Shown here: piece by piece, positions 16,216 to 33,519 of the stretch
Layout of the letters: every line of letters starts with the position of its first letter
How positions within the stretch are numbered: position 1 is the stretch's first letter
Assembly (NCBI RefSeq): GCF_004322755.1
Contig: NZ_CP036401.1
Location: forward strand, 2,046,001-2,110,000
Origin: Pseudoduganella albidiflava
GTDB lineage: Bacteria; Pseudomonadota; Gammaproteobacteria; Burkholderiales; Burkholderiaceae_D
Length of the DNA: 64,000 nt
Direction: 5' to 3'
Translations under genes and position numbers: made by a program
Notes under the pieces: model-generated
What the model saw: only the letters and a program-made list of their open reading frames with translations
Told to the model about the DNA's origin: nothing
Databases searched by the model: none

Positions 16216-16263
16216 TGCTTCTCTTTCAGGTCGGGACCCCGCGCGCGACGTGATGAAATTGTT

Positions 16264-16341
16264 AATTACTGTCGGCGGCGAGGTGAAATCAACCTGCAAG
16301 TCTATCAGCTCGGCTTGCAGAGTTATAGTCAATTACTGTCG
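16264..16341. promoter_or_regulatory. Direct and inverted repeats between two divergent TonB receptors
   Basis: The 258-bp gap between divergent receptor genes holds an 11-bp direct repeat AATTACTGTCG at 16264-16274 and 16331-16341, 67 bp apart, and between them an inverted repeat CTGCAAG (16294-16300) / CTTGCAG (16314-16320). The region is locally AT-rich compared with the flanking genes, as expected for a divergent promoter. No known regulator site is recognised. Confidence 0.35.
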
Positions 16342-16473
16342 AGCAAGTGCTCCTGTCCACCCGCTGTCGCGGCCAAGCCACTGGCCGGCGGGGAAGGCCG
16401 GACTGTCATGGCGTCGTCACATCCACTCTTTAACATTCGGCACAGTTTTCATTCAGCTAACTTTGACCGAAAG

Positions 16474-18726
16474 ATGCCGATGCGCCAGCCTCAGCTTTGC
16501 CCGCTTCTGTTCCGCCCACGCCTGAAACCCCTCTGCCTGTCACTGCTGGCCGCGCTGCCGTCGCTCGCGTTCGCAGCCGACCCGGCGCCGGACCCGGCCG
16601 GGGCACCGCCGATGGCGATCGTGGAAGTGACGGGCACCGGCCAGTCGCGCCAGGTGCAGAACATCACCCGTGCCGACCTGCAGCAGGCGGCACCCGGCAC
16701 CAGCCCCCTGAAGACGCTGGAAAAACTGCCCGGGGTGAGCTTCCAGTCGGCCGACCCGTTCGGCAGCTACGAATGGTCGACGCGCTTCTCGATCCGTGGT
16801 TTCAACCAAAACCAGCTGGGCTTCACGCTCGACGACATCCCGCTGGGCGACATGAGCTACGGGAACAACAACGGCCTGCACATTTCCCGCGCCATCTCCG
16901 CCGAGAACATCGGCCGCGTCGCCGTGTCGCAGGGCGCCGGCGCGCTGGGCACCGCGTCGACCAACAACCTGGGCGGCACCGTGCAGTTCGTCACGCTGGG
17001 CCCGGCCAGCGAACAGGCCATCACGGCCGCGCAAACGCTGGGCAGCGACGACACGGCGCGCACCTTCGTGCGCTTCGACAGCGGCGATTTCGCCGGCGGC
17101 ACCCGGTTCTATATCAGCGGCACGCGCATGCGCTCGGAAAAATGGAAAGGCGCCGGCCCGCAGGACCAGGACCAGTTCAACAGCAAGGTCGAACGCCGCA
17201 TCGGCGAGCACACGCTGTCGGCCTTCTTCAACTACTCGGACCGCCGCGAGGTGGACTACCAGGACCTGTCGCACGAGATGGCGCGCCGCCTGGGCATGGA
17301 CTGGGACAATTACTACCCGGACTGGCAGCGTGCCGTGAACGCGTCGAAGGGCATCTACAGCGGCGCGGTCAACAGCCTGGACGACGCCTACTACCTGGGC
17401 CAGGGCCTGCGCAAGGACAAGCTGGGCGGCGCCACGCTCGACCTGCAGCTGGCGCCGGCGCTGGCCGGCAAGCTCACCGCCTACCACCACGGCAACGAAG
17501 GCCAGGGCCACTGGTACACGCCGTACACCCCCACGTCGGCCGAGGTGCCGATCTCGATCCGCACCACCGAGTACACGATCAGCCGCAACGGCGTGCTGGG
17601 CGACGTGACGTGGGAACTGGGCATGCATACGCTGAACGCCGGCTTCTGGGCCGAGCGCAACAAGCACGAGCTGACGCGCAATTTCTATGCCGTGACCGAC
17701 GGCCGCTACATCGACGACTTCCTGCGCGACCCGATGAGCACCGGCTTCCGCCAGTCGTTCGTCACCGATACCCGCCAGTTCTACGTGCAGGACACCATCG
17801 CGCTGCTGGATGGCCGCCTGAAGATCAACGCCGGTTTCAAGAGCCCGAAGGTGGAGATCGACGCGCACACCTTCACCGGCGACCGTGCCGATGGTTCGAT
17901 CACGGCGAAGAAGACCTTCCTGCCGCAGGCGGGCGTGACTTACCAGCTGTCGCGCAGCGACGAGCTGTTCGCCTCGGGCGCGAAGAACATGCGTTCGTAC
18001 CAGCCGGGCGTGAACGGCCCGTTCTCGCAGACCCGGGCCGGCTACGCGCTGTCGATCGCCGGCCTGAAACCGGAGACCTCGACCACGTTCGACGCCGGCA
18101 TGCGCTTCAAGCGCGATGCTGTGCAGGGTTCGGTCGCCGTCTACTACGCCAAGTTCGACGACCGCCAGATGGGGATCGCCACCTGCGCCGGCATCGTCGG
18201 CTGCGCCGGCACGATCGTCAACGTGGGCAAGGTGGAGACGCGCGGCCTGGAAGCGCTGGCCGTGTGGAAGATCGCTCCGTCGGTCAGCTGGTTCAACACC
18301 TTCACGTACAACGATTCCACCTACGAATCGAACTACACGGACAACGGCAAGCTGGTCGCGGTGAAAGGCAAGCAGGTGGTCGACGCGCCGAAGAAGATGT
18401 TCAACACCGAGCTGGCGTACGACGCCAACGGCTTCTACGCCCGCCTGGGCGCGAAATACACGGACAAGCGCTACTACACCTACCTGAACGACAATTCGGT
18501 GCCGTCCTTCGTGGTGGCCAACCTGTCCGGCGGCTACCGCCTCGGCTCGGCCGGCATGGTCAAGGACCTGACCCTGCAGGTGAACGTGACGAACCTGTTC
18601 GACCGGAGCTACTTCGGCACCATCGGCTCGAACGGCTTCTCGGCCTCCGACCCCCAGGGCACCTCGATGACGCTGCTGTCCGGCGCGCCGCGCCAGGTGT
18701 TCTTCACGCTGTCCGGCAAGCTGTAA
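16474..18726 (+). CDS. TonB-dependent outer membrane receptor
   Basis: A 750-residue TonB-dependent receptor. It has an N-terminal signal peptide with positively charged head and hydrophobic core ending near LAFAADP, then a plug (IVEVTGTGQSRQVQNITRADL; TLEKLPGVSFQSADPFGSYE; FSIRGFNQNQLGFTLDDIPLG) and a beta-barrel ending in VFFTLSGKL. The plug motifs resemble receptors annotated for siderophores or for thiamine and vitamin transport, but the ligand cannot be set from sequence. The frame is open far upstream only because it reads antisense through the divergent receptor; the ATG at 16474 (or 16480) is the first that gives a signal peptide, preceded by a weak GAAAG. Confidence 0.9.
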   Translation: MPMRQPQLCPLLFRPRLKPLCLSLLAALPSLAFAADPAPDPAGAPPMAIVEVTGTGQSRQVQNITRADLQQAAPGTSPLKTLEKLPGVSFQSADPFGSYEWSTRFSIRGFNQNQLGFTLDDIPLGDMSYGNNNGLHISRAISAENIGRVAVSQGAGALGTASTNNLGGTVQFVTLGPASEQAITAAQTLGSDDTARTFVRFDSGDFAGGTRFYISGTRMRSEKWKGAGPQDQDQFNSKVERRIGEHTLSAFFNYSDRREVDYQDLSHEMARRLGMDWDNYYPDWQRAVNASKGIYSGAVNSLDDAYYLGQGLRKDKLGGATLDLQLAPALAGKLTAYHHGNEGQGHWYTPYTPTSAEVPISIRTTEYTISRNGVLGDVTWELGMHTLNAGFWAERNKHELTRNFYAVTDGRYIDDFLRDPMSTGFRQSFVTDTRQFYVQDTIALLDGRLKINAGFKSPKVEIDAHTFTGDRADGSITAKKTFLPQAGVTYQLSRSDELFASGAKNMRSYQPGVNGPFSQTRAGYALSIAGLKPETSTTFDAGMRFKRDAVQGSVAVYYAKFDDRQMGIATCAGIVGCAGTIVNVGKVETRGLEALAVWKIAPSVSWFNTFTYNDSTYESNYTDNGKLVAVKGKQVVDAPKKMFNTELAYDANGFYARLGAKYTDKRYYTYLNDNSVPSFVVANLSGGYRLGSAGMVKDLTLQVNVTNLFDRSYFGTIGSNGFSASDPQGTSMTLLSGAPRQVFFTLSGKL

Positions 18727-19925: not shown

Positions 19926-22076
19926 CTACCCGCCGAAGCGGCTGTCGAGTTCGAGTGCCGTGCGGCACAGGTGCACCAGCATCAATGCATTGGCGGCGCA
20001 CGGGGCGGCGAGCCAGGTATCCGTGGCATGCACCAGCACGTCCAGCCCCGTTGCCAGCCAGAAGCGCCGCGCGGCGTCGACCTGATGACGTTCGCGCGCC
20101 GTCGGCGCATGCCGGCCCGTCATGCAATGGTGTTCGAGCACCGCGAGCACGGCGCCGAGCCGTTGCCCGTGGGCCGATGCGGCGATAGCGGGGAAGGGCG
20201 CCATGGCGGCCGCCGGCGCGGGATTCGCCGCCGGGCGCATCAGGCGGGCCAGCCTTGCCAGCAGGCCCGGGTTGGCGGCGCCGGCGCGCGGTGCCTGGAA
20301 GTCAAGCGCGATGGCGCGCAGGCGTCCGGCGCCGGCGATGAGCAGGGAGACGGGTTCCAGCCACGCGGCACCGGCATCCCGCTCGACCGCCGCGAGTATG
20401 CCGGCGATCCGGTCCACCGCCGGGCCAACCGTCGGGCCCACCGCGAGGCCGGCCGCGGCAACCCACGCATCGAGGTTTTCGATGCGCTCGCGGCGTAACA
20501 CATCGCACGGTACCTGCAGGGGGAGCGAGCGGCCGTGCCGGTCGAGCACTGTCCAGGTGAGCCGCTGCCGCGCCTCGTGCAACTGCGGCGTTTCATGGCC
20601 GGCCGGCCGCAGGAATACATAGGAAGGGCCGCTTTCCAGCCCGGCGCCGCCACGCAGCGTGGTCCCCAGTTCCACCCAGTCGTCGAACCCGGCATCTTGC
20701 CAGAGCGGGTCGTCCGCGGCGCAGGGCGGCAGGGGTTCGGCGCGGGTGGCGCCGCCGACGCCGAGCCGGCCATCCGCCGACAGGCGCGCGCCCCGCAGCG
20801 ACCAGTGCCCGGCGGCGACGGCGCGCTCGCACGTCACGCCCTGCCACAGCGGATCGACGGTCCAGGCGGCCCCGCGATGGAATGCGCGGTCGGCGCCATC
20901 GCGGCGCGCCAGCACGGCTTGCACGATGGTGCGGCTGGCCGGGTCCCAGAACGGTACCGCCAGGCCGCGCGCGCCACCGCGCCGTTGCCACCAGTGCGCG
21001 CCCAGGGACAGCAGTTGCAGTGCGGCCCCATCGGCGAAGGTGCGGCGCTCGCTGCCGCGCAAGCTTGCGGGCACTTCGCCTTCGGCGCTGGCAAGCGCGG
21101 TGCACAGCGCGTGGATGCGCGCCGCCAGCCCGATCGCTTCGCGCTCGTCCGCATGCGCGTCGCGCCGCTGCAGCAGTGCCGCCGTGCCGGCCAGCTCGCG
21201 CAGCATGCCGGCCAGCCTGGGAAAGGCTTCGATGCGGGCCGACGTGCCGAGCGCGCGCAGTTGTGCAGTGGCGTAATCGTGAGAATGAGCCGGCAGGTGT
21301 GACCAGCCGATGCCGCACAGTTCCAGCACCAGCCGGCCGGCATGGGCCAGGAAGTCCCGCTCGGCCGGTGCCAGGCCCGCTGGCGGCGCGGGCGTATCGT
21401 CCGCCGGCCAGGGCACCGCATGGCCGTGCTGCTGCCAGACCGCCGCCAGCGCCAGCAGGTGCAGCGCCTTGCGCGACGCCGCCGGCGCCTCGGAAACCAT
21501 GCCGGCCAGCCCGCCGCCGCCGATGTAGCGGCACGTGAAATCCAGCTCGGGCAGCGCGACGCGCAGCACGCCGCCGCTGGCTTCGCAGTCGGGCGGGCCG
21601 GCGCGGGGGAGCAGCGCGGCCGCCTTGTGCACGGCGGCCCGCCCGGCTTCCTTCAGCACGGCCGGACGGTCCAGCGCGAGCACCTCGGCCAGCACGTCCG
21701 GCGCCGCCACGGCCGCGCGAGCGCCGCCGGCTACCTCATTGGCTACCTCATTGGCGACCATATTGGCCGCGCTGTCGACGCCGCCGCCGCCGGCACCGGT
21801 CTCTTCCGTACGCAGCCACAGCACGGCGGCCAGCACATGCTTGCAGATGCCGGGCGCCGGGCAGTCGCACGTGGCGCCGGCCGGTCCGTTCGCGCCGATG
21901 GCGACCCGCTGGCCATCGACGCGGAACGTGCCGCCGGCCGGGCCGGCCGGCCCCTCCCAGGCCACCTTGCCGGCTTCCACGTCCTTGGCGGCGCGGCGCA
22001 GCAGGCCGGTGCTGGCGAGGGCGGCCAGCGCGTCGTCGTCGAAATTGCGGCACAGCGCCGCCCAGGGCGCGGTCAT
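19926..22076 (-). CDS. SWIM zinc-finger protein (YehQ-like)
   Basis: A 716-residue cytoplasmic protein with an N-terminal SWIM zinc finger: C70 and C72 (CDC), C78 and H80 (CKH), fitting CxCx(n)CxH, a fold that binds nucleic acid or protein. The remaining 600 residues have no recognised domain, only long helical stretches rich in alanine. Start is the ATG at 22074-22076, overlapping the VWA stop as ATGA. Last gene of the six-gene MoxR locus; E. coli YehQ, also SWIM and also last, is the likely counterpart. A 12-bp in-frame repeat encodes a tripled VANE-like stretch (21731-21766). Role inferred only from context. Confidence 0.75.
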   Translation of the reverse strand: MTAPWAALCRNFDDDALAALASTGLLRRAAKDVEAGKVAWEGPAGPAGGTFRVDGQRVAIGANGPAGATCDCPAPGICKHVLAAVLWLRTEETGAGGGGVDSAANMVANEVANEVAGGARAAVAAPDVLAEVLALDRPAVLKEAGRAAVHKAAALLPRAGPPDCEASGGVLRVALPELDFTCRYIGGGGLAGMVSEAPAASRKALHLLALAAVWQQHGHAVPWPADDTPAPPAGLAPAERDFLAHAGRLVLELCGIGWSHLPAHSHDYATAQLRALGTSARIEAFPRLAGMLRELAGTAALLQRRDAHADEREAIGLAARIHALCTALASAEGEVPASLRGSERRTFADGAALQLLSLGAHWWQRRGGARGLAVPFWDPASRTIVQAVLARRDGADRAFHRGAAWTVDPLWQGVTCERAVAAGHWSLRGARLSADGRLGVGGATRAEPLPPCAADDPLWQDAGFDDWVELGTTLRGGAGLESGPSYVFLRPAGHETPQLHEARQRLTWTVLDRHGRSLPLQVPCDVLRRERIENLDAWVAAAGLAVGPTVGPAVDRIAGILAAVERDAGAAWLEPVSLLIAGAGRLRAIALDFQAPRAGAANPGLLARLARLMRPAANPAPAAAMAPFPAIAASAHGQRLGAVLAVLEHHCMTGRHAPTARERHQVDAARRFWLATGLDVLVHATDTWLAAPCAANALMLVHLCRTALELDSRFGG

Positions 22077-23194
22077 CCGATCACCTCGGCCAGCCAGCCG
22101 GCAAAGCGGGCGGGCGTCAGGGCGGCGATTTCCATGCCCCGCGCGGCCAGCCGCTGCGCCATGTCGCGGTCGTACACGGGCTGTGCGCGCGCGTCGAGCG
22201 CGGCGAGGCCGAGCAGGCGCACGCGCGCCTGCGCCAGCCGCTGCACGCAGGCCAGCAGCGCTCCGGGCGGCGCGCCTTCGGCGAAGTCGCTGACCAGCGC
22301 GACGATGGTGCGCTGCGGCGCCGTCACCAGCTGCTCGCAGTAGCGCATGGCGCGGCCCACATCGGTGCCGCCGCCCAGCTGCACGGTCAGCAATACCTCG
22401 ACCGGATCGGCCGCCATGCGCGTGAGGTCCACCACATTCGTGTCGAACACCACCAGCCGGATGTTCACGGACGGCAGCGACACGAGGATGCCGGCCACGA
22501 TCGCGCTGTACAGCACGGAGTCCAGCATCGAGGCGCTCTGGTCGACGCACAGGATGACGTCCCACGGCAGCTGGCGCTTGACGCGGCTGTTGAAGCGGGG
22601 CCGCTCGATCACCAGCCGGCGGCTGGCCACGTCGTAGTGGCGCAGGTTGGCGGCGATGGTGGCGCGCCAGTCGAAATTCTGCGCGCTGGGCACCATCGAG
22701 CGGCGGAAGCGGTTGCGGCGGCCGGACAGGGCGTTGACGAAGTCGTGGCGCAGGCGCCGCGTGATGTCCTGCACCACCTTGCCGATCACGTCGCGCACGG
22801 CGTCCTGCATGTCCGCGCCCAGCCGGCCGCGCATCGCCAGCAGGGCGCGCGCCAGGTTCTCGTCCGGTTCCAGCGCGCGCAGCGTGGCCGGGTCGCGCAG
22901 GATCTCGTTCAGGCCGAACTTGTCCAGCGCATGGCGCTGCACGCGTTCGTACACGTCCTGCGGGAACAGCTCGCGCGTGCGCTGCAGCCAGTCGAGCGCC
23001 GTGACCTGGCTGGCATCGAGGCCGCCCTGGCCGCCCCTGCGCAGCAGGCCTTGCCGGTCGTAGGCGCGGCCGTAAAGGTAATCGAGCGCATCGTCGACCC
23101 GGCGGTCGGCGGCGGACAGCGCGTCGCCGGTGTCGGGCTCGGCATAGCGGCCCAGCACCAGGCGCCAGCGGCGCAGCGTGTCGGCGCCGCTCAT
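22073..23194 (-). CDS. VWA domain protein, CoxE-like (YehP-like)
   Basis: A 373-residue protein whose C-terminal half is a von Willebrand factor A domain with an intact metal-ion-dependent adhesion site: DQSAS (DxSxS), the threonine in GGGTDVG and the aspartate in LVSDFAEG. The N-terminal half is helical, with YLYGRAYDRQGLLRRGGQGG, as in CoxE/YehP proteins. VWA proteins are standard partners of MoxR AAA+ ATPases, acting as adaptor or substrate-recruiting subunit. ATGA overlaps at both ends (with DUF5682 upstream and SWIM downstream) imply coupled translation and fixed stoichiometry. The start at 23194 was chosen for that overlap; the longer open frame is antisense noise. Confidence 0.85.
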   Translation of the reverse strand: MSGADTLRRWRLVLGRYAEPDTGDALSAADRRVDDALDYLYGRAYDRQGLLRRGGQGGLDASQVTALDWLQRTRELFPQDVYERVQRHALDKFGLNEILRDPATLRALEPDENLARALLAMRGRLGADMQDAVRDVIGKVVQDITRRLRHDFVNALSGRRNRFRRSMVPSAQNFDWRATIAANLRHYDVASRRLVIERPRFNSRVKRQLPWDVILCVDQSASMLDSVLYSAIVAGILVSLPSVNIRLVVFDTNVVDLTRMAADPVEVLLTVQLGGGTDVGRAMRYCEQLVTAPQRTIVALVSDFAEGAPPGALLACVQRLAQARVRLLGLAALDARAQPVYDRDMAQRLAARGMEIAALTPARFAGWLAEVIG

Positions 23195-25872
23195 GGCTCG
23201 CCTCCCGTCACCGCCTCGCCCGTCCGTGGCTTTTCCGTCCCTGGCGTTGTCGTTGCTGACGTTATCGTCCCTGACGTTATCGTCCCTGGCGTTGTCGTTG
23301 CGGATGTTCTCGTCCATGATTGCAAGCCATCGCGCGCCAGCACCGCCAGCAGGTCCGCGTGCAGCGCCGCGCCGGCCAGCATGTCCGCTTCCGATGCCTC
23401 CAGCTCGCCTTGCCAACCGAGGCCGGCATCGTCCGCCACGGCCAGCGCCGCCGCCAGCTGCGCCGTTTCGGCCGGCTTCAGTCGCGTGAAGGCATGGCGC
23501 AGGTCCGGCAGGTGGCGCAGGAACGTCCGTTCGTCCCAGCTGGCCATGACGGTATCGACGGCCTGGCGCAGCGCCGGCTGCGTCAGCAGCAGCTCCGGCC
23601 CCGCCGCCAGCAGGCCCTGCAGGGCGCGCGCCGCGTCGTCGCGTTCGGCGCCGGGGCCCAGGGTGGCTGCCAGCACGGCGCACAGGCGCTCCTCGCTCCA
23701 CGCGCCGTCCAGGAACAGCAGCACGGCGGCGGCGCTGGCGATGCCGGGCGCCGCACGGGGCGCCGTCACCAGCGCCGCCAGCACGCGCGCCCAGCGGCCG
23801 GCGCCGTCGTCGTCCTTGTTGTCGTCGTCCTTGTTGTCGTCGTCCTTGCTGTCGCCGTCATTGGCGTCGCCGCCCGCCGCGGCGTGCGCCAGCGCGTGGC
23901 GGAAGGCGCGCAGCGACAGCAAGCTGCCGATCGCCGCTTCCTCGCCTTCGCGCGCCGTGTCGGCCAGTTGCGGCAGCAGATACAGCGCAGCGTCCCATGC
24001 ACGCAGCAGCAGCGCGTGCAGCGCCGGATCGTCCTTCACGCCCAGCGGCTCGCGGGCCCGCCACAGTGCCAGCAGCTGGTGGCAGCCGGCGATCACGGAC
24101 GCCGGGGCGCCATCCTCGTCCAGGCGCGCCGCGACCATCGCCAGCAGGTCGGGCAGCCGCTCGTGCAGGCCGACCAGGCAGCCGCGCGTGAGCAGGCCGG
24201 CGGCCGCGCCGGCCGAACGGGCCAGGCCGCGCTCCGCCAGCGCCGCCTCGTCGCGCCGCAGCCGGGCCAGCGCCACGTCCTGCAGCGTGGCGCCCTCGGC
24301 GGACAGGGCCACCAGCCGGGCCTCGACCAGCGGCGTCCACGCCACCTGCCATTCCTCGATCAGCAACTCCAGCCGGGTGCCGGCCAGGAAGTCCGGACCG
24401 CCGCGCCACTGCGCCAGCTCCAGCCCCAGCCAGTCGGCCAGGTGCAGGAAGCGGCTGCGCTCGCGGTGGCCTTCGTCGCGGTAGATGTCCAGCCGCACGG
24501 TGCGGGGAGCGCTGTCGTCGAGGCGCACGCCCAGCCGCGCCGCCAGGCGCCGCGCATCGTCCACCAGTGGCGGCACGGCCGCCGTGGCCGGTATGTCGCC
24601 CAGCGCGTGGCCGCACAGCAGGCGGCGCACGTCGGCATCGAAGCCGGCCATGCCGTCGCCCAGCGCGCCCTTGACGAAGCACGACCGGATCGCGTCCAGC
24701 ACGTCTTCCCGGCCCGGCCCGGCATGGCCGCGCAGCGCGGCCAGCCGCCCGGCCTGCAGCACGGCGGCGCCCACGTCCGCCGTGGACACCTGCTCGGCCA
24801 GCCCCAGGGTACGCGTTTCGCGCGCCAGTTCCGCCAGGCAGGCGGCGGCCACCTCGTGCAGCGCGGGGCCGGCGGGATCGTCGACGGCACTGTTCCAGAC
24901 GCGCTGGTACCAGCCCGGCGCGGGCATCCCGGCGGCATAGCCGTTCAGCGCATCGAGGTGGTCGAAGCTGTAGCGGATCAGCCAGTTGCCGCTGCCGGCG
25001 GCGCCGCGCGGCCGCGGCGGCGATGCCGCGGGAGCCGCCTTCGGCGCGGCCAAGGGTTCGGCCAGCATGGCCTGCAGGCCGGGGGTATGGAAGCCGCCCG
25101 TCACCACCACGATCGCACCGTTCGTTTCCTGCAGGTGCCGGCGGATGTGCGCCGCCATGTGCCGCTCGCGCGGCAGGCTGCCTTCCGCTTCCAGCACCTG
25201 GGGCTCGTAGTCGTGGCGCGCCATCGCGCAATACGCATACACGTCGGCCAGCAGCGTGCGCCAGTCGCGCAGGGCGACCGGGCCGCGCAGCTCGAACAGG
25301 TGGTCCCACAGGTCGTCCTGGGCGCGGCAGCCGCTGCGCGCCGCCAGTGCCTTCAGGTAGGTGCTGTGGGCCAGGTGGCGCTCGGCCATCAGCGTGTGCG
25401 CGGCGGTATCGGTGTCGTCCGCCGCGCGCGCCGTCCATGGCTGGTCGATGAAGGCGAGGCGGGCGCCGGCATCGGCACCGGCGCGCAGGGCTACCCATTC
25501 GGGGCTGTAGTCGCAGAACGGGAAGAAGGCCGGGCGGCTGCCGCCGCCGGGCCGCGGCGCCAGGCTCAGTATCGCCACCGGCGGGCGCGTGGCGCCGTCC
25601 AGCAGTGCCGGCAGCAGGGCATCGAAGTCGTCCGGCCCCTCGACCAGCACGGCGGCCGGCCGTACTTCGCGGATCAACTCGCGCACCGCCAGCGCGCACG
25701 CAGGGCTGTGGTGGCGCACCGGCGCGAAGAACAGCCGTCCGCCGTGCCCGCCGTGCAGGCTGGCCAAGCCATCGCGTACATCGGGCGGCACGCCGTCGGC
25801 CGGTACCCCTTCTGCCGCAACCGCGCCGTTCAGGGCCACAGCGCGCGCCCGGCGTCGCGGAAGAGTTTCCAT
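23191..25872 (-). CDS. DUF5682 family protein (YehM-like)
   Basis: Large protein (893 residues) of the DUF5682 family, function unknown. Conserved N-terminal features are RLFFAPVRHHSPACALAV, VLVEGPDDFDALLP and, further on, VVVTGGFHTPGL; these resemble the TraB/ChaN-like fold (GPxx, then GxxH), which is my inference. Two in-frame 15-bp tandem repeats are seen: KDDDN units (23806-23865) and a threonine-rich tail of TTTPGTITS-like units (23237-23311). Both are probably disordered. The ATG at 25872 overlaps the MoxR gene by 43 nt; a GTG at 25839 is an alternative with only a 10-nt overlap. Third element of the MoxR/VWA locus, matching YehM position. Confidence 0.78.
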   Translation of the reverse strand: METLPRRRARAVALNGAVAAEGVPADGVPPDVRDGLASLHGGHGGRLFFAPVRHHSPACALAVRELIREVRPAAVLVEGPDDFDALLPALLDGATRPPVAILSLAPRPGGGSRPAFFPFCDYSPEWVALRAGADAGARLAFIDQPWTARAADDTDTAAHTLMAERHLAHSTYLKALAARSGCRAQDDLWDHLFELRGPVALRDWRTLLADVYAYCAMARHDYEPQVLEAEGSLPRERHMAAHIRRHLQETNGAIVVVTGGFHTPGLQAMLAEPLAAPKAAPAASPPRPRGAAGSGNWLIRYSFDHLDALNGYAAGMPAPGWYQRVWNSAVDDPAGPALHEVAAACLAELARETRTLGLAEQVSTADVGAAVLQAGRLAALRGHAGPGREDVLDAIRSCFVKGALGDGMAGFDADVRRLLCGHALGDIPATAAVPPLVDDARRLAARLGVRLDDSAPRTVRLDIYRDEGHRERSRFLHLADWLGLELAQWRGGPDFLAGTRLELLIEEWQVAWTPLVEARLVALSAEGATLQDVALARLRRDEAALAERGLARSAGAAAGLLTRGCLVGLHERLPDLLAMVAARLDEDGAPASVIAGCHQLLALWRAREPLGVKDDPALHALLLRAWDAALYLLPQLADTAREGEEAAIGSLLSLRAFRHALAHAAAGGDANDGDSKDDDNKDDDNKDDDGAGRWARVLAALVTAPRAAPGIASAAAVLLFLDGAWSEERLCAVLAATLGPGAERDDAARALQGLLAAGPELLLTQPALRQAVDTVMASWDERTFLRHLPDLRHAFTRLKPAETAQLAAALAVADDAGLGWQGELEASEADMLAGAALHADLLAVLARDGLQSWTRTSATTTPGTITSGTITSATTTPGTEKPRTGEAVTGGEP

Positions 25873-26954
25873 TGGCGATCGCGGCGGGCCCGCTCCTGCA
25901 CCACGGTGTCGAAATAGTGCTGCACGCGGCGCAGGTCGTCCGCGCTATCCTTCAGCACCACGCCCTGCAGCTGGTTGGCCAGTTCGCGCGGCGTGAGGCG
26001 CCCGTCGCCGAAATGGCGCGCCTCCAGCGCGGCGGCATAGGCCACGTTGACCGCCTCGGCCGTCGACATGACCGCATCGGGTGTCTTCAGGGCCGTGCCT
26101 TCGCTGGTACGGCCGGCGCGCAGTTCCTGGAAGGTGGTGACCAGCAGCGCGACCACGTCGCGTTCCACCTCGACCTGCACGCCGGCGCTTTCCAGGTCGC
26201 GCCGCACCTGGCCCATCACCAGTTCCAGCTCGAACGCGTGGTCGGCGATCGGGCGCACGGTCTCGAAGTTGAAGCGCCGCTTCAGTGCCGACGACATGTC
26301 GTGCACGCCGCGGTCGCGCAGGTTCGCCGTGGCGATCACGTTGAAGCCGCGCCGCGCGTGCAGGCGCGCCGCGTCGCCCAGCTCCGGCACCATGAGCTGC
26401 TTTTCCGACATCAGCGAGATCATCACGTCCTGGATCTCGGGCGGGCAGCGGGTGATTTCCTCGAACCGCACCAGCTTGCCGGCGGCCATGGCCCGGTACA
26501 GCGGCGATGGCACCAGCGCGCGCCGGCTCGGCCCCTCGGCCAGCAGCAGCGCATAGTTCCAGGAATACTTGATGTGGTCTTCCGTGGTGCCGGCGGTGCC
26601 CTGGATGGTCAGCGCGGAATCGCCGGTGATGGCCGCGCTCAGCAGCTCGGACAGCAGCGATTTCGCGGTGCCCGGCTCGCCCACCAGCATCAGGCCCTGG
26701 TGGCCCATCAGCGTGACGATGGCGCGCTCCACCAGCGGATCGTCGCCGTAGAACTTGCGCCCGATGCCGAGCGCCTCGTCGCCCAGGATGAAGGCGCGTA
26801 CGGCGCGCGGCGACAGCTGCCAGCCCTCGGGCCGCGTGCCGGCGTCGCTGTCGCGCAGGCGCGCCAGTTCGTCCGCGTAACGGTGCTCGGCGCTGCTGCG
26901 CAGGATGCCTGCCGGATCGCCGTCGTGGAGTGTGTCTTCTTGCATGATCACCAT
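25830..26954 (-). CDS. MoxR family AAA+ ATPase (YehL-like)
   Basis: AAA+ ATPase of the MoxR superfamily, 374 residues. Walker A is GEPGTAKS at residues 92-99. The Walker B region is LVRFEEITRCPPEIQD, with EE where most MoxR proteins have DE. Sensor-1 is FNVIATANLRDRG and the arginine finger region DMSSALKRRFNFE. MoxR proteins work as chaperone-like remodelling ATPases with a VWA partner, here encoded two genes downstream. The ATG at 26954 has GAAGG five nt upstream and overlaps the DUF4132 stop by 7 nt. Known grouping: the YehL branch of MoxR proteins. The client is unknown. Confidence 0.88.
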   Translation of the reverse strand: MVIMQEDTLHDGDPAGILRSSAEHRYADELARLRDSDAGTRPEGWQLSPRAVRAFILGDEALGIGRKFYGDDPLVERAIVTLMGHQGLMLVGEPGTAKSLLSELLSAAITGDSALTIQGTAGTTEDHIKYSWNYALLLAEGPSRRALVPSPLYRAMAAGKLVRFEEITRCPPEIQDVMISLMSEKQLMVPELGDAARLHARRGFNVIATANLRDRGVHDMSSALKRRFNFETVRPIADHAFELELVMGQVRRDLESAGVQVEVERDVVALLVTTFQELRAGRTSEGTALKTPDAVMSTAEAVNVAYAAALEARHFGDGRLTPRELANQLQGVVLKDSADDLRRVQHYFDTVVQERARRDRQWKLFRDAGRALWP

Positions 26955-29900
26955 TGCGCCTTCTTTTCCCATTGTTCGTCGAACGCGCCCACGCCGGCCA
27001 CGGCGTGGTAGTCGCCATAGGCCTCGGCCAGCAGCACGGGCGGAATGCCGCCCAGGGGCAGCGGCTGGTGCGCGCGGCGCGGCGCCAGCGAATAGAAGCC
27101 CAGCTTCGTGACGGCGGCCGGGATATTCTCTTCCGGCAGCATGCTGCCCGTGAAGTCGATCGCCACGCGGATGCCCGTTGCCGGAAAATCCTTGTGGTAC
27201 GAGGTAAACACCCCGCCATCCTCGGCGGGCGCGCGCTGGTAGCCCAGTTTCGTGAAGGCGCCGCGCAGCGTAAACGCGTCGCTCAGCCAGCCCTGGCGGT
27301 CGGCGATCTCGCGCTGCGCCGGGTTTTGCTGCAGGTCCAACGCCGGTTGCGCGCGCGTCATCTGGGCGAACAGGGGGACCACCTTGTAGTCCTTGAAGTG
27401 GACTTGCCACGCTTTGGCCGATGCCTCCCTGCTCGATACCATGCCGTCCGGCGCGGCGTCGAGCAGGCATGCATGGGCCAGCCGCACGGTGGCGCCATCG
27501 CGCAAGGTCACCTCGTCGTCGTTCGTGTCGACCAGGCTGCCATCCTCGGTGGGGCGGAAGGCGATGCCATCGTCCGTCAGCCAGACCAGCCGCTGCACCA
27601 GGCGGCCCGCCAGCGGGTGGGCTTGCAGGTACTCGCGCCATTCCGCCGCCGGCCAGATGCGGCCTGCGCACATGGCTTCATACAGGCGCGCCGCCTGGAT
27701 CGCCACCACCTGCTTGACTTCCTTCCTGCACAGCGCCAGCTGCTGCTTTGCTTCGCGCGCCGCATCGGCATCGTCGTCCTGGCGCGGCGCGGGCAGGGCG
27801 GCGACCCCCTTGCCTTCGGGATTGCGCAGCACGATCTTCATGGCCGCGTCCAGCGTGACCGTGAAGTCGCGGGCGCCGTAGCAGAGCCGCAGCGTGCCGG
27901 TTTCATCCAGCCCGCCGGTGGGGATCGTGCGGTCGGCCAGTTCATCCTGTGTCCAGCCGTTGCGGGCGGCGATGCGTTCGACCAGCACGCGGGCCCGTTC
28001 CTGCACGGACGCGGTGCGGTAGCGGCGCGCGATGGCCAGCACGAACTGGATGGCGGCCGGATCGTCGGACGCCGCGGCGGCTTCCACCAGCGCCTCGACC
28101 TGGGCCCGGCGCGGATAATGGTCGCGCATGTACTGCGTGATGATCGCCGCCATCGCATGGCCCGGCATGCCGGACGCCAGCGCGAGGATGCCTTTCTCGC
28201 CGATCGCCGTGCCGAGGTATTCGGCCATCTTCTGGCGCGCGATGCGCTCGGCCACCTGGTCCAGCGTCAGGCGGCCCTCTTCGGCGTAGTAGTCCGGATA
28301 GCGTTGCGCCAGCGCCTGGTATTGCGCGAGCTGCTGGGGCGCCTGCTGGCTGGCCAGCGCCGCCGCTTCTTCATGGGACGGATGGCGCGTGTCATGGGCG
28401 ATGAACTGCAGCAGCAGGTGGCTGCCGAGCCGGGCGCGGCTCGCGCCGTCCAGCAGGGCCAGGTAGCGGTCGAACAGGGGATTGCCACCCGGTTCCTTCA
28501 GCTTGCAGGCCACCACGACCCACCACTGGATGACCTCCGGCGGTACCGGCGTGCCATCCTGCCAGCTGCAGGCGGGCAGCAGTGACAGGTCGAGCCAGGC
28601 CAGGCCGGCCGGCGCCTTGCCCTTCAACGCCTTCGTGGCCTGCGCCAGCAGCCGCTCCGGTGCCAGCAGCGGGGCGATATCTTCGCCCAGCGTTTCCAGC
28701 GCGGACAGCATGGCGGCGCTGGCCGATTCGCGGCTTTCCTTCGCCAGCGCCGCGCGCAGGGCGGGAACCGCTTCGCGCCAGCCCATGCGCGCCAGCCACT
28801 GGGCCGCTTCGATCCGCACTTCCTGCTTGCTGGAGCCCAGTGCCTCGCACACCTGGCGGCCGATGTCCGGCACCGCGCCCAGCACATCCTGGGCCGCCAG
28901 GCGGTGCGTCTTGCCTTCGCCCAGCGCCAGTTCCATCAGGCGGGGCAGCCAGCGCGGCGCGATGGCGGGGAAGGTGCGCAGCACTTCCAGCGTTCGGCCC
29001 AGCTCAGGCTCGAAGCGCGTGCCGGCGGGCGGCGCGGCCATGCCCAGGCCCGCGTCGATGTATTCCGGGTGATCCGCGAAGTATGGCCAGATCCGATGGG
29101 GCGGCAGCACCGCTTGCGGCGGTTCGATGATCCATCGGGTGTTCAGGCAGGCAAAGGCAGTGTCGTCCTCCGCCAGGCCGGCCGCACGGCTCAGCTGCGC
29201 CAACTGGCGCAAGTCCACCTGTTCCGGGTCGCCGATGGATTCCCGCGCAAGGGAGTCGTACCAGAACGGCGTGTTCCGGCTGGCGGCGACGAACCAGCGC
29301 AACGCCTGGTGGATGCCGAAATCGGCGCGTGCGGCCAGGCGTCCGCCGTGCTGCAGCGTCGAGCGGACCATGCCGTTGGCGAGGCATTTCATGGCCCGTT
29401 CGCCCGTGTCGCCGTTCAAGGCCGCCAGCGCCAGCCGGAAATCGTCCGGCTTCAGCGCCCGTTGCGCGTCGTAGTTGCGCTGCGCGTAGTCCCAGCGATG
29501 CTTGGCGGTGGCATTGCGTTCCGCTTCCTCCCGCGCCTGGCGTTGCAGAGCCTGCAACCGCTCCGCGTGATTGGCCAGCAGCAGGTCGAGCGCATCGGCG
29601 CCCAGCGTGCGTTCTTCCAGTTCGGGCAGCGGTGGCGGCGGTGGCAAGCCGGTGCCGGCCGCATCGCGGGCCGCCGCGACTCGGCCGATGGCATCGCGCA
29701 GCGCCTGCTGCACCGCCTTGCCCCGTTCGAGGGCCAGCGCGGCTTCCAGCGCCGGCAGCGCATCGGCGCCGCGGACCCGTGCCAGCAGTTCGGCGGCGTT
29801 GGCGCGCTGGCCGGCCGGGCCTTCCGCCAGGACACGCTCGAGCACTTCCGTGAAGGCGGCGTCCGCCGTCACGAAGCGCGCGGCGGCGGCGCGCACCGTC

Positions 29901-30685
29901 TTGCCGTCGCCGACCGCCAGCTCCACCAGCAGCGGTGCGAACGCCGCCGCCAGCGCCGGGTTGCCGCCAAGGCGCTGGCACAGCATTGTCTTGCCGGCGA
30001 CGGAGAGCATCCCGGCGCACGCGATAACGTCTTCCCGATGGCTGTCCAGGTAGCGGTCCAGCGTGGCCGGATCGAGCAGCGGGCGGTAGACCCTGTCCCG
30101 GTAGTAGTCGTAGACGTCTTCGCGTTCGAACACGATGACGAGGGCCAGCGGCGCTGGCAGTTCCTCATGCGCCACGATGGCCGACAGCAGTTGCACGGTC
30201 CACGCGGCACGGGTTTCCGTGTCGGCGACGCTGCCCCGGCACTCGCAGGTCGCCCACAGCGCGTCGTTCAGCAGGTAATGCAGCCAGTCGGGCATCGCGG
30301 CGCCGGTGCGCTGCAGCGATGCGCCACCGTCGGCGGCCGCCAGCACCTTGCCCAGGCGGACCAGCACCGGGATGTCGGGGGCATCCGCATCGACTTTCGT
30401 GTACAGCGCCGCGCGTGCCTTCAGGGCCGCGTTGCCTTGTTCGGAAGTGCCATAGGTGGCGTGCAGCCGGCCCGGCGAGCCGAGGAACGTGCCGGCGCGG
30501 GGCGCCGCCGCCTGCAGGTCGGCCAGCACCTCGACGCCATCGCCACGGGCGATGAAGGCGGCCGCGCGGGCGCCGAGCGGCGTGTCGAGCGCATCGAGGC
30601 TGGCGACGCCGCCCTTGATCAGCGATTCATCGGAGCGCAGGACGCGCACGGTTGCGCCGATGGCGCCGAGCAGTGCTTTGAACAT
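26948..30685 (-). CDS. DUF4132 / MolR-like protein, long paralogue (YehI-like)
   Basis: A 1245-residue cytoplasmic protein with a C-terminal DUF4132 domain, preceded by HEAT-like helical repeats. Two internal segments are homologous: about 255-320 (GDGKTVRAAAARFV ... DALPALEAALALE) and about 585-650 (GEGKTHRLAAQDVL ... AVPALRAALAKE). Between them lies a helical, charged block with ATAKHRWDYAQRNYDAQRAL, absent from the neighbouring paralogue. DUF4132 occurs in E. coli MolR and YehI; function unknown. The ATG at 30685 is preferred over the TTG at 30691. A promoter-like block shared with the short paralogue lies upstream. The 3' end overlaps MoxR. Confidence 0.85.
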   Translation of the reverse strand: MFKALLGAIGATVRVLRSDESLIKGGVASLDALDTPLGARAAAFIARGDGVEVLADLQAAAPRAGTFLGSPGRLHATYGTSEQGNAALKARAALYTKVDADAPDIPVLVRLGKVLAAADGGASLQRTGAAMPDWLHYLLNDALWATCECRGSVADTETRAAWTVQLLSAIVAHEELPAPLALVIVFEREDVYDYYRDRVYRPLLDPATLDRYLDSHREDVIACAGMLSVAGKTMLCQRLGGNPALAAAFAPLLVELAVGDGKTVRAAAARFVTADAAFTEVLERVLAEGPAGQRANAAELLARVRGADALPALEAALALERGKAVQQALRDAIGRVAAARDAAGTGLPPPPPLPELEERTLGADALDLLLANHAERLQALQRQAREEAERNATAKHRWDYAQRNYDAQRALKPDDFRLALAALNGDTGERAMKCLANGMVRSTLQHGGRLAARADFGIHQALRWFVAASRNTPFWYDSLARESIGDPEQVDLRQLAQLSRAAGLAEDDTAFACLNTRWIIEPPQAVLPPHRIWPYFADHPEYIDAGLGMAAPPAGTRFEPELGRTLEVLRTFPAIAPRWLPRLMELALGEGKTHRLAAQDVLGAVPDIGRQVCEALGSSKQEVRIEAAQWLARMGWREAVPALRAALAKESRESASAAMLSALETLGEDIAPLLAPERLLAQATKALKGKAPAGLAWLDLSLLPACSWQDGTPVPPEVIQWWVVVACKLKEPGGNPLFDRYLALLDGASRARLGSHLLLQFIAHDTRHPSHEEAAALASQQAPQQLAQYQALAQRYPDYYAEEGRLTLDQVAERIARQKMAEYLGTAIGEKGILALASGMPGHAMAAIITQYMRDHYPRRAQVEALVEAAAASDDPAAIQFVLAIARRYRTASVQERARVLVERIAARNGWTQDELADRTIPTGGLDETGTLRLCYGARDFTVTLDAAMKIVLRNPEGKGVAALPAPRQDDDADAAREAKQQLALCRKEVKQVVAIQAARLYEAMCAGRIWPAAEWREYLQAHPLAGRLVQRLVWLTDDGIAFRPTEDGSLVDTNDDEVTLRDGATVRLAHACLLDAAPDGMVSSREASAKAWQVHFKDYKVVPLFAQMTRAQPALDLQQNPAQREIADRQGWLSDAFTLRGAFTKLGYQRAPAEDGGVFTSYHKDFPATGIRVAIDFTGSMLPEENIPAAVTKLGFYSLAPRRAHQPLPLGGIPPVLLAEAYGDYHAVAGVGAFDEQWEKKAQW

Positions 30686-30713
30686 AAGCAATCAACAGGA
30701 CAGGAGTGCCCGT

Positions 30714-30742
30714 ATGCTGCCATGGGGAAGGACCATTTACAA
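30714..30742 (-). promoter_or_regulatory. Putative promoter of the long DUF4132 gene
   Basis: Read leftward: TTGTAA (30742-30737), 17 bp, CAGCAT (30719-30714). The block CATGGCAGCATACG is identical in the same position before the short paralogue, with the same 17-bp spacing. The -35 is good; the -10 is weak. Conservation between paralogues is the main argument. Confidence 0.35.
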
Positions 30743-30798
30743 GGCTGCAAGAAACATTCATCCAGCAAGCCAGTCCTGCCGCGACGGCACATCCCTTT

Positions 30799-33519
30799 TT
30801 ATGACTGCCACGGCACCTTCTTTTGCCAATGTTCGTCGAACCGGGACGATGCCGCCACGGCGTGATAGTCGCCATACGCTTCGGCCAGCAGCACCGGCGG
30901 TACCTGGGCCAGCGGCAACTGGCTGTCGGCCTGGCCGCGCGGGGTGATCGCCTGGAAGGCCAGCGTCTTCACGGCGGCAGGCACGTTTTCCTCGGGCAGT
31001 GCATTGCCGGTGAATTCGATCGCCACGCGGATACCGGCGGCCGGGAATTCCTTGTGGTAGGTGGTGAAGAAATGGCCTTCGAAGTCGGCGGTGCGCTGGT
31101 AGCCCAGCTTCGTGAACGCGCCGCGCAGCGTGAACGCGTCGCTCAGCCAGCCCTGGCGGTCGGCGATCTCCAGCGGCGCCGAATTTCCCTCCCCCTTGCG
31201 CTGCAGGTCCAGCGCCGGCAGCGTGCGCGTCATCTGGGCGAACAGCGGCGCCAGCTTGTAGTCCTTGAAATGCTTCAGCCAGGCCGCGGCCTGCTCGGCC
31301 GGCAGCAGGGCGGCGTGGGCCAGCCGCACGGTGGCGCCTTCGTCCAGGGCGACGTCGTCGTCGTTCGTGTCGACCAGCGTGCCGTCGCCGGCCGGCCGGA
31401 AACACAGGCCGCCATCGGTCATCCACGCCAGCCGCTGCGCCAGCCGGCCGACCAGCGGATGCCGTTCCACGTACTCCCGCCAGTCCGCCAGCGGCCAGGC
31501 CCGGCCGGCGCACATCGCTTCGTACAGCCGGGCGGTCTGCTGTTCGATGACCTGCCTGACTTCTTTCTTGCACTGCGTGAGCTGCTGTTTGGCTTCGGCG
31601 ATGGCTTCGGCGTCGTCGTCCTTGCGGGGCTCGGGCAGGGCGGCGACGGTCTTGCCTTCGGCATTGCGCAGCACGATCTTCATCGCCGCATCCAGCGTGA
31701 CGGTGAACTCGCGGCTGCCGTAGTGGAGCTGCAGCGTGCCGCTTTCATCCAGCCCGCCGGTGGGCACGGTGCGGTCGGCCAGTTCATCTGCCGACCAGCC
31801 GTTGCGCGCGGCGATTCGGTCAACCAGCATGCGCGCCTTTTCCTTCACGGAGCGGGTGCGGTAGCGCCGCGCGGTGGCCAGCACGAACTGGATCGCCGCC
31901 GGATCGTCGGACGCGGCGGCCGCTTCCAGCAGCGCCTCGACCTGCGCGCGCCGCGGGTAATGGTCGCGCATGTATTGCCGGATGGCGGTGACCATTTCAT
32001 GGCCGGCCATGCCGGAGGCCAGCGCCAGGATGCCTTTCTCGTTGATCGCGGTGCCCAGGTAGATGTCCAGCTTCTCGCGCTTGCACTGCTCGAACACTTC
32101 CTCGTAGGTGAGCTTGCCCTTTTCGGCGAACCATACGGGTTCGCGCTGCGCCAGTTCCTGGTAGTCCGCATACAGTTGCGGCGCCTTGCCGTTCGCATAC
32201 GCCACCGCTTCGTCGTGCGACGCGCCGCGCGTATCCTGCGCGATGAACTGCCGCAGCACGTGGCTGCCCAGCGCCGCGCGGCTGGCCCGGTCCAGCAGGC
32301 CCAGGTAGCGGTCGAACAGCGGATTGCCGCCCGGTTCCTTCAACTTGTACGCCAGGGCGACCCACCACTGGATGATCTCGGGCGGCACCGGGCTGCCATC
32401 TTCCCAGCGGCAGGCAGGCAACTGCGCCATGTCGAACCAGGCCAGGCCGGCCGGCGGCTTGCCCTTCAACGCCTTCTTCGCCTGGGCCAGCAGCCGTTCC
32501 GGCGCCAGCAGCGGCGCGATATCCTCGCCCAGCCTTTCCAGTGCCGTCAGCATGGCCGCGCTGGCCGTCTCGCGGGTTTCCTTCGCCAGCGCGGCGTGCA
32601 GGGCAGGAATCGCCGTCCGCCCGCGTTCGGCACCCAGCCAGGCCAGCCAGTTTGCCGCCTCGATACGCACTTCCAGCTTGTTCGATGCCAGCAGGCCGGC
32701 CAGCGTCGGGGCAAATGCCGCACTGGCGGTGACCAGGGCGGCGGCGGCCGTGCGTACGCTAATGGTGTCGCTGCATGCCAGCTCGGCCAGCAGTGGTGCG
32801 AACGCCTCCGCCAGCGCGCTGTCGGCGCCGAGGCGCGTTGCCAGCATCACCTTGCCGCTGTTCGACATTTCCCGCGCGCACGCTGCCACGCGATCCGGGG
32901 CCGCCAGCAGCCAGGCGTCCAGCGCGCCGGGCGCCAGCAGCGGGCGGTACGTCTGGCCATGGTAGAACTCGCGCAGCGCACCTCGCTCGAACACGATGGG
33001 CAGCGCCATCGTGTCGGGCAGGCCTTCGTGGCGCAGGATGGCAGCCAGCAGGTCGACCGTCCACGCGGTGCGGGGCGGCGGCTCGGCCCGATAGTGGCTC
33101 GGGATGCAGGTGACACACAGCGCGTCGTTCAGCAGGTAATGCAGCCAGTCGGGCATCGGTGCGCCGGTCTTTTCCAGCGACATGCCGCCATCGGCGGCCG
33201 CGAGCACCTTGCCGAGGCGGACCAGCATGGCAATGTTCGTGGCGGAAGGGGCGACATCGCGGTATAGCGTGTTTCGCAGGCCATCCGTCAGGCCCTCGCC
33301 CGGCCAGACCCGCACGCGGCCCGGCGCACCGAGCGCGTCGCGACCGCCCACACCCAGCTTCGACAGCTCTTCCAGGACCCCGGCACCGGCACCGTCGATG
33401 ACGAAGGCGGCGGCGCGGGCGCCGAGGGACGGGACGAGGGCGTCGAGGCCGCGCAGGCTGGCGTGGATCAGCGTTGCGGTGTCGATGGCGGCAGTCGCGC
33501 CAGGCAGGGTAATCGTCAT
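30799..33519 (-). CDS. DUF4132 / MolR-like protein, short paralogue
   Basis: A 906-residue paralogue of the downstream long DUF4132 protein, collinear at both ends: N-terminal LGARAAAFVIDG, LVRLGKVLAAADGG and PDWLHYLLNDAL, and the C-terminal DUF4132 domain with QGWLSDAFTLRGAFTKLGYQ nearly identical. About 335 residues present in the long copy between its two HEAT-like repeats are missing here, and the join combines the start of repeat 1 with the end of repeat 2 (LEVRIEAANWLAWLG). I chose the ATG at 33517-33519 (MTITLPG) because upstream residues have no counterpart in the paralogue. First gene of the six-gene locus. Its reading frame is intact, so it is not an obvious pseudogene. Confidence 0.82.
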   Translation of the reverse strand: MTITLPGATAAIDTATLIHASLRGLDALVPSLGARAAAFVIDGAGAGVLEELSKLGVGGRDALGAPGRVRVWPGEGLTDGLRNTLYRDVAPSATNIAMLVRLGKVLAAADGGMSLEKTGAPMPDWLHYLLNDALCVTCIPSHYRAEPPPRTAWTVDLLAAILRHEGLPDTMALPIVFERGALREFYHGQTYRPLLAPGALDAWLLAAPDRVAACAREMSNSGKVMLATRLGADSALAEAFAPLLAELACSDTISVRTAAAALVTASAAFAPTLAGLLASNKLEVRIEAANWLAWLGAERGRTAIPALHAALAKETRETASAAMLTALERLGEDIAPLLAPERLLAQAKKALKGKPPAGLAWFDMAQLPACRWEDGSPVPPEIIQWWVALAYKLKEPGGNPLFDRYLGLLDRASRAALGSHVLRQFIAQDTRGASHDEAVAYANGKAPQLYADYQELAQREPVWFAEKGKLTYEEVFEQCKREKLDIYLGTAINEKGILALASGMAGHEMVTAIRQYMRDHYPRRAQVEALLEAAAASDDPAAIQFVLATARRYRTRSVKEKARMLVDRIAARNGWSADELADRTVPTGGLDESGTLQLHYGSREFTVTLDAAMKIVLRNAEGKTVAALPEPRKDDDAEAIAEAKQQLTQCKKEVRQVIEQQTARLYEAMCAGRAWPLADWREYVERHPLVGRLAQRLAWMTDGGLCFRPAGDGTLVDTNDDDVALDEGATVRLAHAALLPAEQAAAWLKHFKDYKLAPLFAQMTRTLPALDLQRKGEGNSAPLEIADRQGWLSDAFTLRGAFTKLGYQRTADFEGHFFTTYHKEFPAAGIRVAIEFTGNALPEENVPAAVKTLAFQAITPRGQADSQLPLAQVPPVLLAEAYGDYHAVAASSRFDEHWQKKVPWQS

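Follow-up and report, generated by a model that had tools for sequence, protein, structure and literature searches.

A conserved MoxR, VWA, DUF5682 and SWIM gene module with a variable large helical partner and a predicted hydrolase in Pseudoduganella albidiflava

We analysed a 64,000-nucleotide stretch of the Pseudoduganella albidiflava genome (NCBI RefSeq assembly GCF_004322755.1, contig NZ_CP036401.1, forward-strand positions 2,046,001 to 2,110,000), referred to here as the window. Between positions 19926 and 33519 it carries six genes encoding two DUF4132 proteins, a MoxR-type AAA+ ATPase, a DUF5682 protein, a von Willebrand factor A (VWA) protein and a SWIM zinc-finger protein. A survey of bacterial genomes showed that MoxR, VWA, DUF5682 and SWIM, together with a large helical protein that is DUF4132 or, in one subtype, DUF5691, constitute a conserved module. 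The module is probably a stress or self-defence system. Its copy in Escherichia coli K-12 is still annotated as 'putative' or 'uncharacterized', and no account of the module was found in a literature search whose reach left out most subscription papers and bioRxiv; the passages available from papers that mention DUF4132 do not treat it. New in this analysis are the prediction of a hydrolase in DUF5682, the adaptor-like DUF4132 proteins with their arrays and their exchange for DUF5691, and a likely control by DNA damage that is limited to certain lineages.

An earlier reading of the window from its letters alone (the sequence-only reading) had suggested that a whole module is conserved between beta- and gammaproteobacteria, a view that rare co-occurrence of the genes elsewhere would have weakened. 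Genomes of GTDB species were surveyed by a motif scan with a DUF5682 alignment, which returned at least 593 stretches, all found by an RHH motif pattern; 576 of these were relatives, of which the best 80 were taken as loci. These were annotated with profiles built first on proteins of the window, E. coli, a Sinorhizobium plasmid and Methylosinus and afterwards on the loci's own proteins, with 100 bits as the lowest score at which a family counted as present. DUF5682 had at least 6 kb of sequence on both sides in 58 of the 80 loci, and 56 of these 58 held all five families; the remaining two held DUF5682 only. Eight of the 22 loci with shorter flanks also held all five families, the rest being mostly cut by contig ends, and the complete set was present in 64 of 80 loci overall. 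Judged by record titles, the loci came from about seven phyla (Pseudomonadota, Actinomycetota, Planctomycetota, Verrucomicrobiota, Acidobacteriota, Bacillota and Spirochaetota). The neighbourhood survey of DUF5682 loci thus excludes a chance association, and the suggested conservation was found to reach well beyond the two classes.

The order of the genes varied among the 80 loci. With H for DUF4132, M for MoxR, T for DUF5682, V for VWA and S for SWIM, H-M-T-V-S was seen 24 times, M-T-V-S-H 17 times and V-S-H-M-T twice, among other orders, and two or three H preceded M-T-V-S in 15 loci. A gene set kept intact through changes of order points to functional coupling. Tree distances of the five proteins were correlated (rho 0.66-0.87 across 61 loci, compared with a maximum of 0.13 in 200 permutations), a correlation that owes part of its strength to shared species history. 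Three loci in which DUF5682 stood alone (L023, L031 and L065) weigh against the reading as one machine proposed below, L031 having flanks of 5.6 and 9.9 kb; the three genomes carried 6, 1 and 1 DUF4132 matches elsewhere.

The sequence-only reading had also pointed to a likeness to the E. coli molR-yehI-yehL-yehM-yehP-yehQ region, and this was borne out, as the K-12 locus yehH(pseudogene)-yehI-yehK-yehL-yehM-yehP-yehQ has the same families in the same order as the window. In BLASTP comparisons of window and E. coli proteins, identity was 53% for MoxR (351 columns), 45% for VWA (366), 30% for DUF5682 (773), 31% and 29% for the DUF4132 proteins (236 and 250) and 36% for SWIM over 74 columns only, the two SWIM proteins being alignable at the finger alone. 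YehL is a named MoxR subfamily in the part of PMC3893208 available. Both DUF4132 genes of the window are intact, whereas K-12 has one and a pseudogene, together with the small yehK between the genes. A WGR-domain gene, yehF, and the DUF4132 pseudogene yehH lie upstream of yehI (L005, 6475-10270), so the K-12 system may be incomplete.

The module is patchy in most lineages sampled and near-core in E. coli. A DUF5682 match was present in 27 of 195 genomes of the same family (26 above the cut-off) and in 14 of 398 sample genomes of the same phylum; in E. coli it was present in 5284 of 5426 genomes, with at least 80% of the gene in 5166. Copies also occurred on plasmids of Iodobacter, rhizobia and Methylosinus, that of Iodobacter having the same order and adjoining a type I restriction system and transposases. 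An E. coli IncF plasmid (L012) carries the yeh locus as a piece of chromosome flanked by IS26 copies, and resistance genes lie on both sides of it. No cluster of non-core neighbours, which were not annotated by function, occurred in more than 8 of the 80 loci.

DUF5682 scores in the 195 family genomes fell into distinct classes. DUF4132 accompanied every one of the 16 places that scored 305-361 bits, lying within 5 kb of it on its contig. It was missing from the contigs of all 18 places with more than 790 bits, many of which belong to draft genomes; the two other places were a contig fragment and a sub-threshold match. In the six loci inspected of the 18 high-scoring ones, a SWIM-type protein and DUF5691 stood upstream of MoxR-DUF5682-VWA and DUF4132 was absent. 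Pfam searches of two loci of this subtype found DUF5691 in both and SWIM at the cut-off in one. The Methylosinus plasmid carries SWIM-DUF5691-MoxR-DUF5682 followed by several partial VWA frames. DUF5691 in the place of DUF4132 indicates that the large third component has been exchanged while MoxR, DUF5682, VWA and SWIM stay. When the two large families were compared for a shared origin, hhalign gave 26% in the HEAT region.

DUF4132 had been described in the sequence-only reading as a family of HEAT-repeat proteins, which was borne out for DUF4132b and for the family profile. HEAT_PBS scored 22.8 bits in DUF4132b (cut-off 20.9) and HEAT_2 fell just under its cut-off (25.4 bits, cut-off 27.7), the family profile matched alphaRep/HEAT structures at E 1.5e-26, and Pfam gave no HEAT match in DUF4132a. 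In a third subtype, read in three species of one genus, 8 to 11 consecutive DUF4132 frames stood directly before MoxR, mostly of 1,140-1,260 residues and some truncated or split. The 24 array frames of more than 1,000 residues contained eight orthologue groups found in at least two species, six of them in all three, and most array positions were orthologous between species. Orthologues were 78-94% identical and paralogues within an array 43-67%. Averaged over all pairs of the 24 full-length members, orthologues included, identity was 60-73% in alignment columns 700-1200 and 38-50% in columns 200-700. For ten orthologue pairs, omega was 0.15-0.54 in the first 700 columns and 0.09-0.33 in the rest, which indicates that the array copies have been maintained under purifying selection and are not a recent burst; positive selection on the DUF4132 halves was considered and was not seen in these values. 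The one array member scanned had an N-terminal WGR domain. Shorter runs of three to five DUF4132, spaced about 2.4-4.2 kb apart, were present in 10 of 23 genomes, 16 of which had been chosen for at least two DUF4132 at the locus and seven of which had one.

Many copies beside one engine, each with a conserved core and a divergent HEAT part, would be expected of a repertoire of adaptors or receptors. The sequence-only reading had proposed that MoxR and VWA act on the DUF4132 proteins; we infer from these arrays, from the divergence of the HEAT part and from the exchange for DUF5691 that DUF4132 serves as an exchangeable adaptor or sensor. Other features of the family fit this assignment poorly. 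The last columns of the array alignment (1200-1300, approximately the YugN-like end) averaged 44% identity and the first 100 columns 56%, so a conserved C-terminal side is true of the DUF4132 core only. Foldseek found no PDB match to the DUF4132 C-terminal model at E <= 0.001, and the fold match, to YugN, covered only the last ~110 residues. WGR was present in just 7 of the 80 loci, and Pfam detected none in the window proteins.

Evidence from fold, motif and profile strongly suggests a hydrolase domain in DUF5682. In the structural model, the central beta-sheet of the N-terminal domain gave a TIKI fold match, and this domain quite probably has the TIKI/ChaN fold; with somewhat less assurance, the protein is predicted to be an active enzyme. 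Its RExxMA...GGxH motif (RExxMA..GGFH) aligned by hhalign with the corresponding ChaN motif, for which unrelated families reached 0.0-0.2% and 100 column shuffles scored 22.2 at best, bar one pinned alignment. H54, E78 and H262 were present in all 134 DUF5682 sequences that had not been selected by motif, and in 100% of the 87 survey sequences from RHH-selected loci; the conservation of R53/H54/H55 in the survey is partly by construction, because the loci were found by the RHH pattern. In the predicted structure, H54 follows strand 47-52, E78 lies within 74-80 and H262 follows 254-259. Enzymes of the TIKI type have a 2His/2Glu motif, as described in the part of PMC6254334 available. DUF5682 resembles the TIKI/TraB/ChaN/EreA superfamily in its predicted N-domain fold and in the motif that aligns with ChaN but, unlike its members, is without the first Glu, has an added helical C-terminal half and is encoded in an AAA+ operon. 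The predicted domain and its invariant, active-site-like His/Glu/His, joined to the helical half, make DUF5682 the likely effector, as a protease or other hydrolase; the sequence-only reading had given this protein no role.

Several results argue in the opposite direction. Foldseek returned no PDB match to the DUF5682 model at E <= 0.001, and the alignment with ChaN reached just 60-66% (score 42.5-43.5) along a motif of 31 columns. Two residues before H54, where E-x-H would have its first Glu, DUF5682 has Val, Ile or Leu, and H55 is Phe in 3 of 14 DUF5682 proteins, in which H54 is invariant. For DUF5682 and TraB, hhalign gave 4-4.5% (score 26.7-26.9), compared with 2.6% (25.3) for the unrelated pair of VWA and TraB; because the score hardly exceeds that of the unrelated pair, the TraB profile was rejected as support for the fold. 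Shuffled TraB columns reached 17.2 at best in 100 trials, bar four pinned alignments, and the five pinned alignments among the 200 shuffles (one ChaN, four TraB) lay on the template's last columns. Profile kinship with Ere was likewise rejected, its score of 17.7 falling below its own shuffles (up to 26.7). A TraB profile search did not recover the Tetrahymena chain, and PDB sequence profiles for DUF5682 and SWIM gave nothing useful.

Control by DNA damage is likely in some lineages. We take the E. coli name molR to denote yehF/yehH. In the sections available of three sources (PMC11039860, PMC3978071, PMC4576408), molR stands in lists of LexA-regulated or SOS genes, and PMC8533742, again in the part available, gives D. 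radiodurans DRA0166 (DUF4132) and DR2173 (WGR) as DdrO targets that are up after mitomycin C. In three Proteus loci, which are not independent of each other, and in one Xenorhabdus locus, the first DUF4132 frame is preceded by a conserved LexA-like site that starts 33 bp ahead of it. Exact CTGTN8ACAG boxes were absent near 81 operon starts, a criterion that is too strict, and SOS-type boxes were therefore counted with one mismatch allowed in 53 countable loci of 55 chosen. Gamma- and betaproteobacteria had 4 compared with 1.8 expected (16 loci), and these four are the sites of Proteus and Xenorhabdus already described. In E. coli, a one-mismatch LexA-type site ends 10 bp before yehF; across 30 kb, such sites were not above chance (13 seen, mean 8.45, with 13 of 100 shuffles reaching that number).

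The remaining counts weigh against a wider role of this control. Alphaproteobacteria had 5 boxes compared with 2.7 expected (9 loci) at no common position, Firmicutes 2 compared with 2.4 (17 loci) and Actinobacteria 0 compared with 2.3 (11 loci), and no SOS-type box was found at the window genes. As no clear excess was seen in these groups, DNA-damage control is not extended to the whole module, and general SOS control was rejected, the conserved site being confined to Proteus and Xenorhabdus. No sigma-70-like promoter was found at the window locus.

A defence role of the module is unproven. None of the six proteins matched a PADLOC 2023 model at E <= 0.01. Neighbouring open reading frames were represented by 102 (110 drawn from 315 eligible, the last eight left out), among which 37 PADLOC families were matched, compared with 40 among 102 control frames beside TraB/Ere/ChaN genes; this is a weak test, as the control genomes differ in phylum mix and at least one control frame (L136) is itself a ChaN gene. 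Only one of the 25 neighbour families listed had more than one member, and the 25 control families listed had two members each and were largely E1-E2 models. Single neighbour frames matched the candidate defence models PDC-S19 (4e-138) and PDC-S14 (1e-94). A motif scan of IMG/VR viral contigs gave 12 pattern matches, none of which was a relative by tblastn. The defence-island reading was rejected on the lack of a PADLOC match, of a visible neighbour excess in this weak test and, by the motif scan, of a viral relative. The sequence-only reading had proposed a stress or defence complex; the regulatory links in some lineages uphold the stress part in some measure, and the defence part found no support in PADLOC, neighbours or viruses.

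Tentatively, we propose a multi-protein, ATP-switched effector machine in which DUF4132 recognises, MoxR-VWA switches and DUF5682 cuts. The conserved DUF4132 core would dock to the machine, and the divergent HEAT part, with WGR in some lineages, would recognise a target, probably some nucleic acid or protein that signals a damaged genome or an invasion. MoxR, as a putative hexamer, and the VWA protein, with its metal ion-dependent adhesion site (MIDAS), may spend ATP on remodelling the adaptor-effector complex and so set the activation threshold; SWIM may aid the binding of nucleic acid or a partner protein, and DUF5682 would be the effector that cuts a specific target under stress. We know of no activity, interaction or phenotype for the module, which tells against the proposal. 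A broader form of it, which we think improbable, is a repertoire-based stress or immune machine, in which one engine of MoxR-VWA-SWIM and a TIKI-fold protease (DUF5682) would serve a bank of interchangeable giant receptors (WGR-HEAT-DUF4132 in up to 11 tandem frames, or DUF5691 in another subtype), each with its own target and docking through the common DUF4132 core; DNA damage would induce the machine, at least in certain lineages.

The same genes could instead encode a dedicated maturation chaperone, in which MoxR-VWA, like NorQD, CbbQO and CoxDE, remodels a single client enzyme to fit it with a metal or cofactor, and DUF4132, DUF5682 and SWIM are client and scaffolds with no conflict or protease role. 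ChaN binds haem, the VWA protein is of the CoxE type, and the near-core status in E. coli is unlike that of a typical mobile defence locus. Characterised MoxR-VWA pairs act in this way in the parts of PMC13036017 and PMC7159879 available, and the available part of PMC6254334 describes non-protease members of the TIKI superfamily, with ester hydrolysis. We nevertheless regard this as on the unlikely side, given that no constant client gene was seen among the unannotated non-core clusters beside the module, that it is patchy outside E. coli, and that a single client would scarcely account for arrays of DUF4132 whose HEAT parts diverge.

The module could also act in conflicts with phages or plasmids, DUF4132, WGR and SWIM being the sensors of phage protein or foreign nucleic acid and DUF5682 the agent that kills or arrests the cell. 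Such a system would resemble the MoxR-vWA-VMAP ternary systems, whose variable helical sensor, MoxR-vWA switch and peptidase effectors form a parallel architecture (PMC7159879, in part). The plasmid copies, one of them beside a restriction system and transposases, the patchy distribution and the strong PDC-S19 and PDC-S14 matches agree with such a role; the PADLOC results for the six proteins and their neighbours, the lack of an IMG/VR relative by motif scan, the near-core status in E. coli and the lack of a sign of positive selection on the DUF4132 halves make it doubtful. Equally doubtful, in our estimation, is a complex for DNA-damage repair or recovery, which would attach to broken DNA through its WGR- or SWIM-bearing proteins and clear that DNA of proteins by stripping or degrading them. 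DNA binding is known for the WGR domains of PARPs, and the molR listing, the Proteus and Xenorhabdus site and the DdrO control of the D. radiodurans genes would fit; the box counts in alphaproteobacteria, Firmicutes and Actinobacteria, the scarcity of WGR and the absence of a constant extra partner among the non-core clusters do not.

MoxR and VWA proteins form ATP-driven remodelling pairs, a point on which family knowledge backs the sequence-only reading. CbbQO and CoxDE have known client enzymes, and these systems and NorQD resemble the window in having a MoxR AAA+ protein beside a CoxE-type VWA protein with an intact MIDAS. The NorQD client is also known (PMC13036017, in part), whereas the constant partners of the present module are DUF5682, SWIM and DUF4132 or DUF5691. 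The MoxR-vWA-VMAP and iSTAND systems (Kaur et al. 2020, PMC7159879) resemble it, in the text available, in combining the MoxR-vWA switch with further components, with a helical module that varies and with effectors of the peptidase type; the likely effector of our module is a separate protein of another fold. The terms yehI, molR, SWIM, DUF4132, TIKI, EreA and WGR are absent from the main text available of that paper, and HEAT occurs once, as a repeat type. With named predicted active-site residues, ATP switch motifs and a bank of adaptor paralogues, an anonymous cluster of DUF genes becomes testable in a laboratory E. coli strain. Should the adaptor-array reading be true, bacteria would possess, on a MoxR-VWA motor, their own counterpart of a protease fed by adaptors, with the receptor repertoire encoded in the genome.

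The window locus was described from open reading frames and a Pfam profile search, with trimmed starts (Table 1). The six genes encode 4,507 residues; the 13.6-kb span on one strand given in the sequence-only reading was right to the base, and its figure of about 4,500 residues, its family assignments and its intact MIDAS were confirmed. MoxR, DUF5682, VWA and SWIM overlap their upstream neighbours by 7, 43, 4 and 4 nucleotides, so that translational coupling of these last four genes is likely, and a 113-base gap separates the two DUF4132 genes. The true start of DUF5682 may lie downstream of 25872, since its conserved part begins near residue 45. Walker A (GEPGTAKS at 92) and Walker B (FEEI at 164) are intact in MoxR, and G103, P105, G106, T107 and K109 of Walker A and E176-E177 of Walker B were 100% conserved in 79 sequences, as were the MIDAS residues (DxSxS/T/D; DQSAS 218, GGGT 274, SDF 302) in 79 aligned VWA sequences. 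The SWIM motif CxC..CxH is intact (CDCPAPGICKH at 70), with a Pfam score of 21.1 bits (cut-off 19.6), and its C, C, C and H were invariant in one set of 39 sequences and present in 94% of 74 in another.

Table 1. Features of the window locus and related loci.
Feature	Location	Strand	Length (aa)	Description
DUF4132a	30799..33519	-	906	HEAT-like region, DUF4132 core, YugN-like alpha/beta domain at end; Pfam DUF4132 5.9e-34
DUF4132b	26948..30685	-	1245	tandem paralogue, longer N-terminal part; Pfam DUF4132 2.4e-31
MoxR-type AAA+ ATPase (YehL counterpart)	25830..26954	-	374	AAA_5 6.1e-36
DUF5682 protein (YehM counterpart)	23191..25872	-	893	Pfam DUF5682 1.1e-105
DUF5682 domains	~residues 45-275			predicted TIKI/ChaN-type hydrolase domain, plus helical C-terminal half
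VWA protein, CoxE type (YehP counterpart)	22073..23194	-	373	VWA_CoxE 1.4e-48
SWIM zinc-finger protein (YehQ counterpart)	19926..22076	-	716	SWIM 2.2e-4
DUF4132 arrays	G138:C29, G159:C55, G181:C361 (L145-L153); also G192:C99			before one MoxR-DUF5682-VWA-SWIM set
DUF5691 subtype loci	L154-L159, L008			SWIM-DUF5691 ahead of MoxR-DUF5682-VWA, DUF4132 absent

On the C-terminal side, an alignment of 680 columns gave 68% identity between DUF4132a and DUF4132b, which differed in N-terminal length. The host genome, a single 7.44-Mb contig, has one DUF5682 match, and the nearest named relative of the protein, from Pseudoduganella lutea, was 83% identical. The genome has a third DUF4132 domain at 4.03 Mb (G000:C1:4030178-4030612), in a divergent frame of about 720 residues with no other module family in the 18 kb around it; similar stand-alone frames occur in several genomes of the family. 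At the DUF5682/VWA junction (23170-23330), the tail of DUF5682 has short imperfect repeats that are DN-rich in one frame and TTPGT-like in the other.

Two further genes of the window lie on the plus strand outside the locus. A DUF5694 protein (38069-39190, Pfam E 1.6e-15), possibly TraB-like, is encoded 4.5 kb beyond it. The frame at 14332-18726 encodes a TonB-dependent receptor of 1464 residues, in which the plug begins only at residue 773 and is preceded by a long stretch with no Pfam match.

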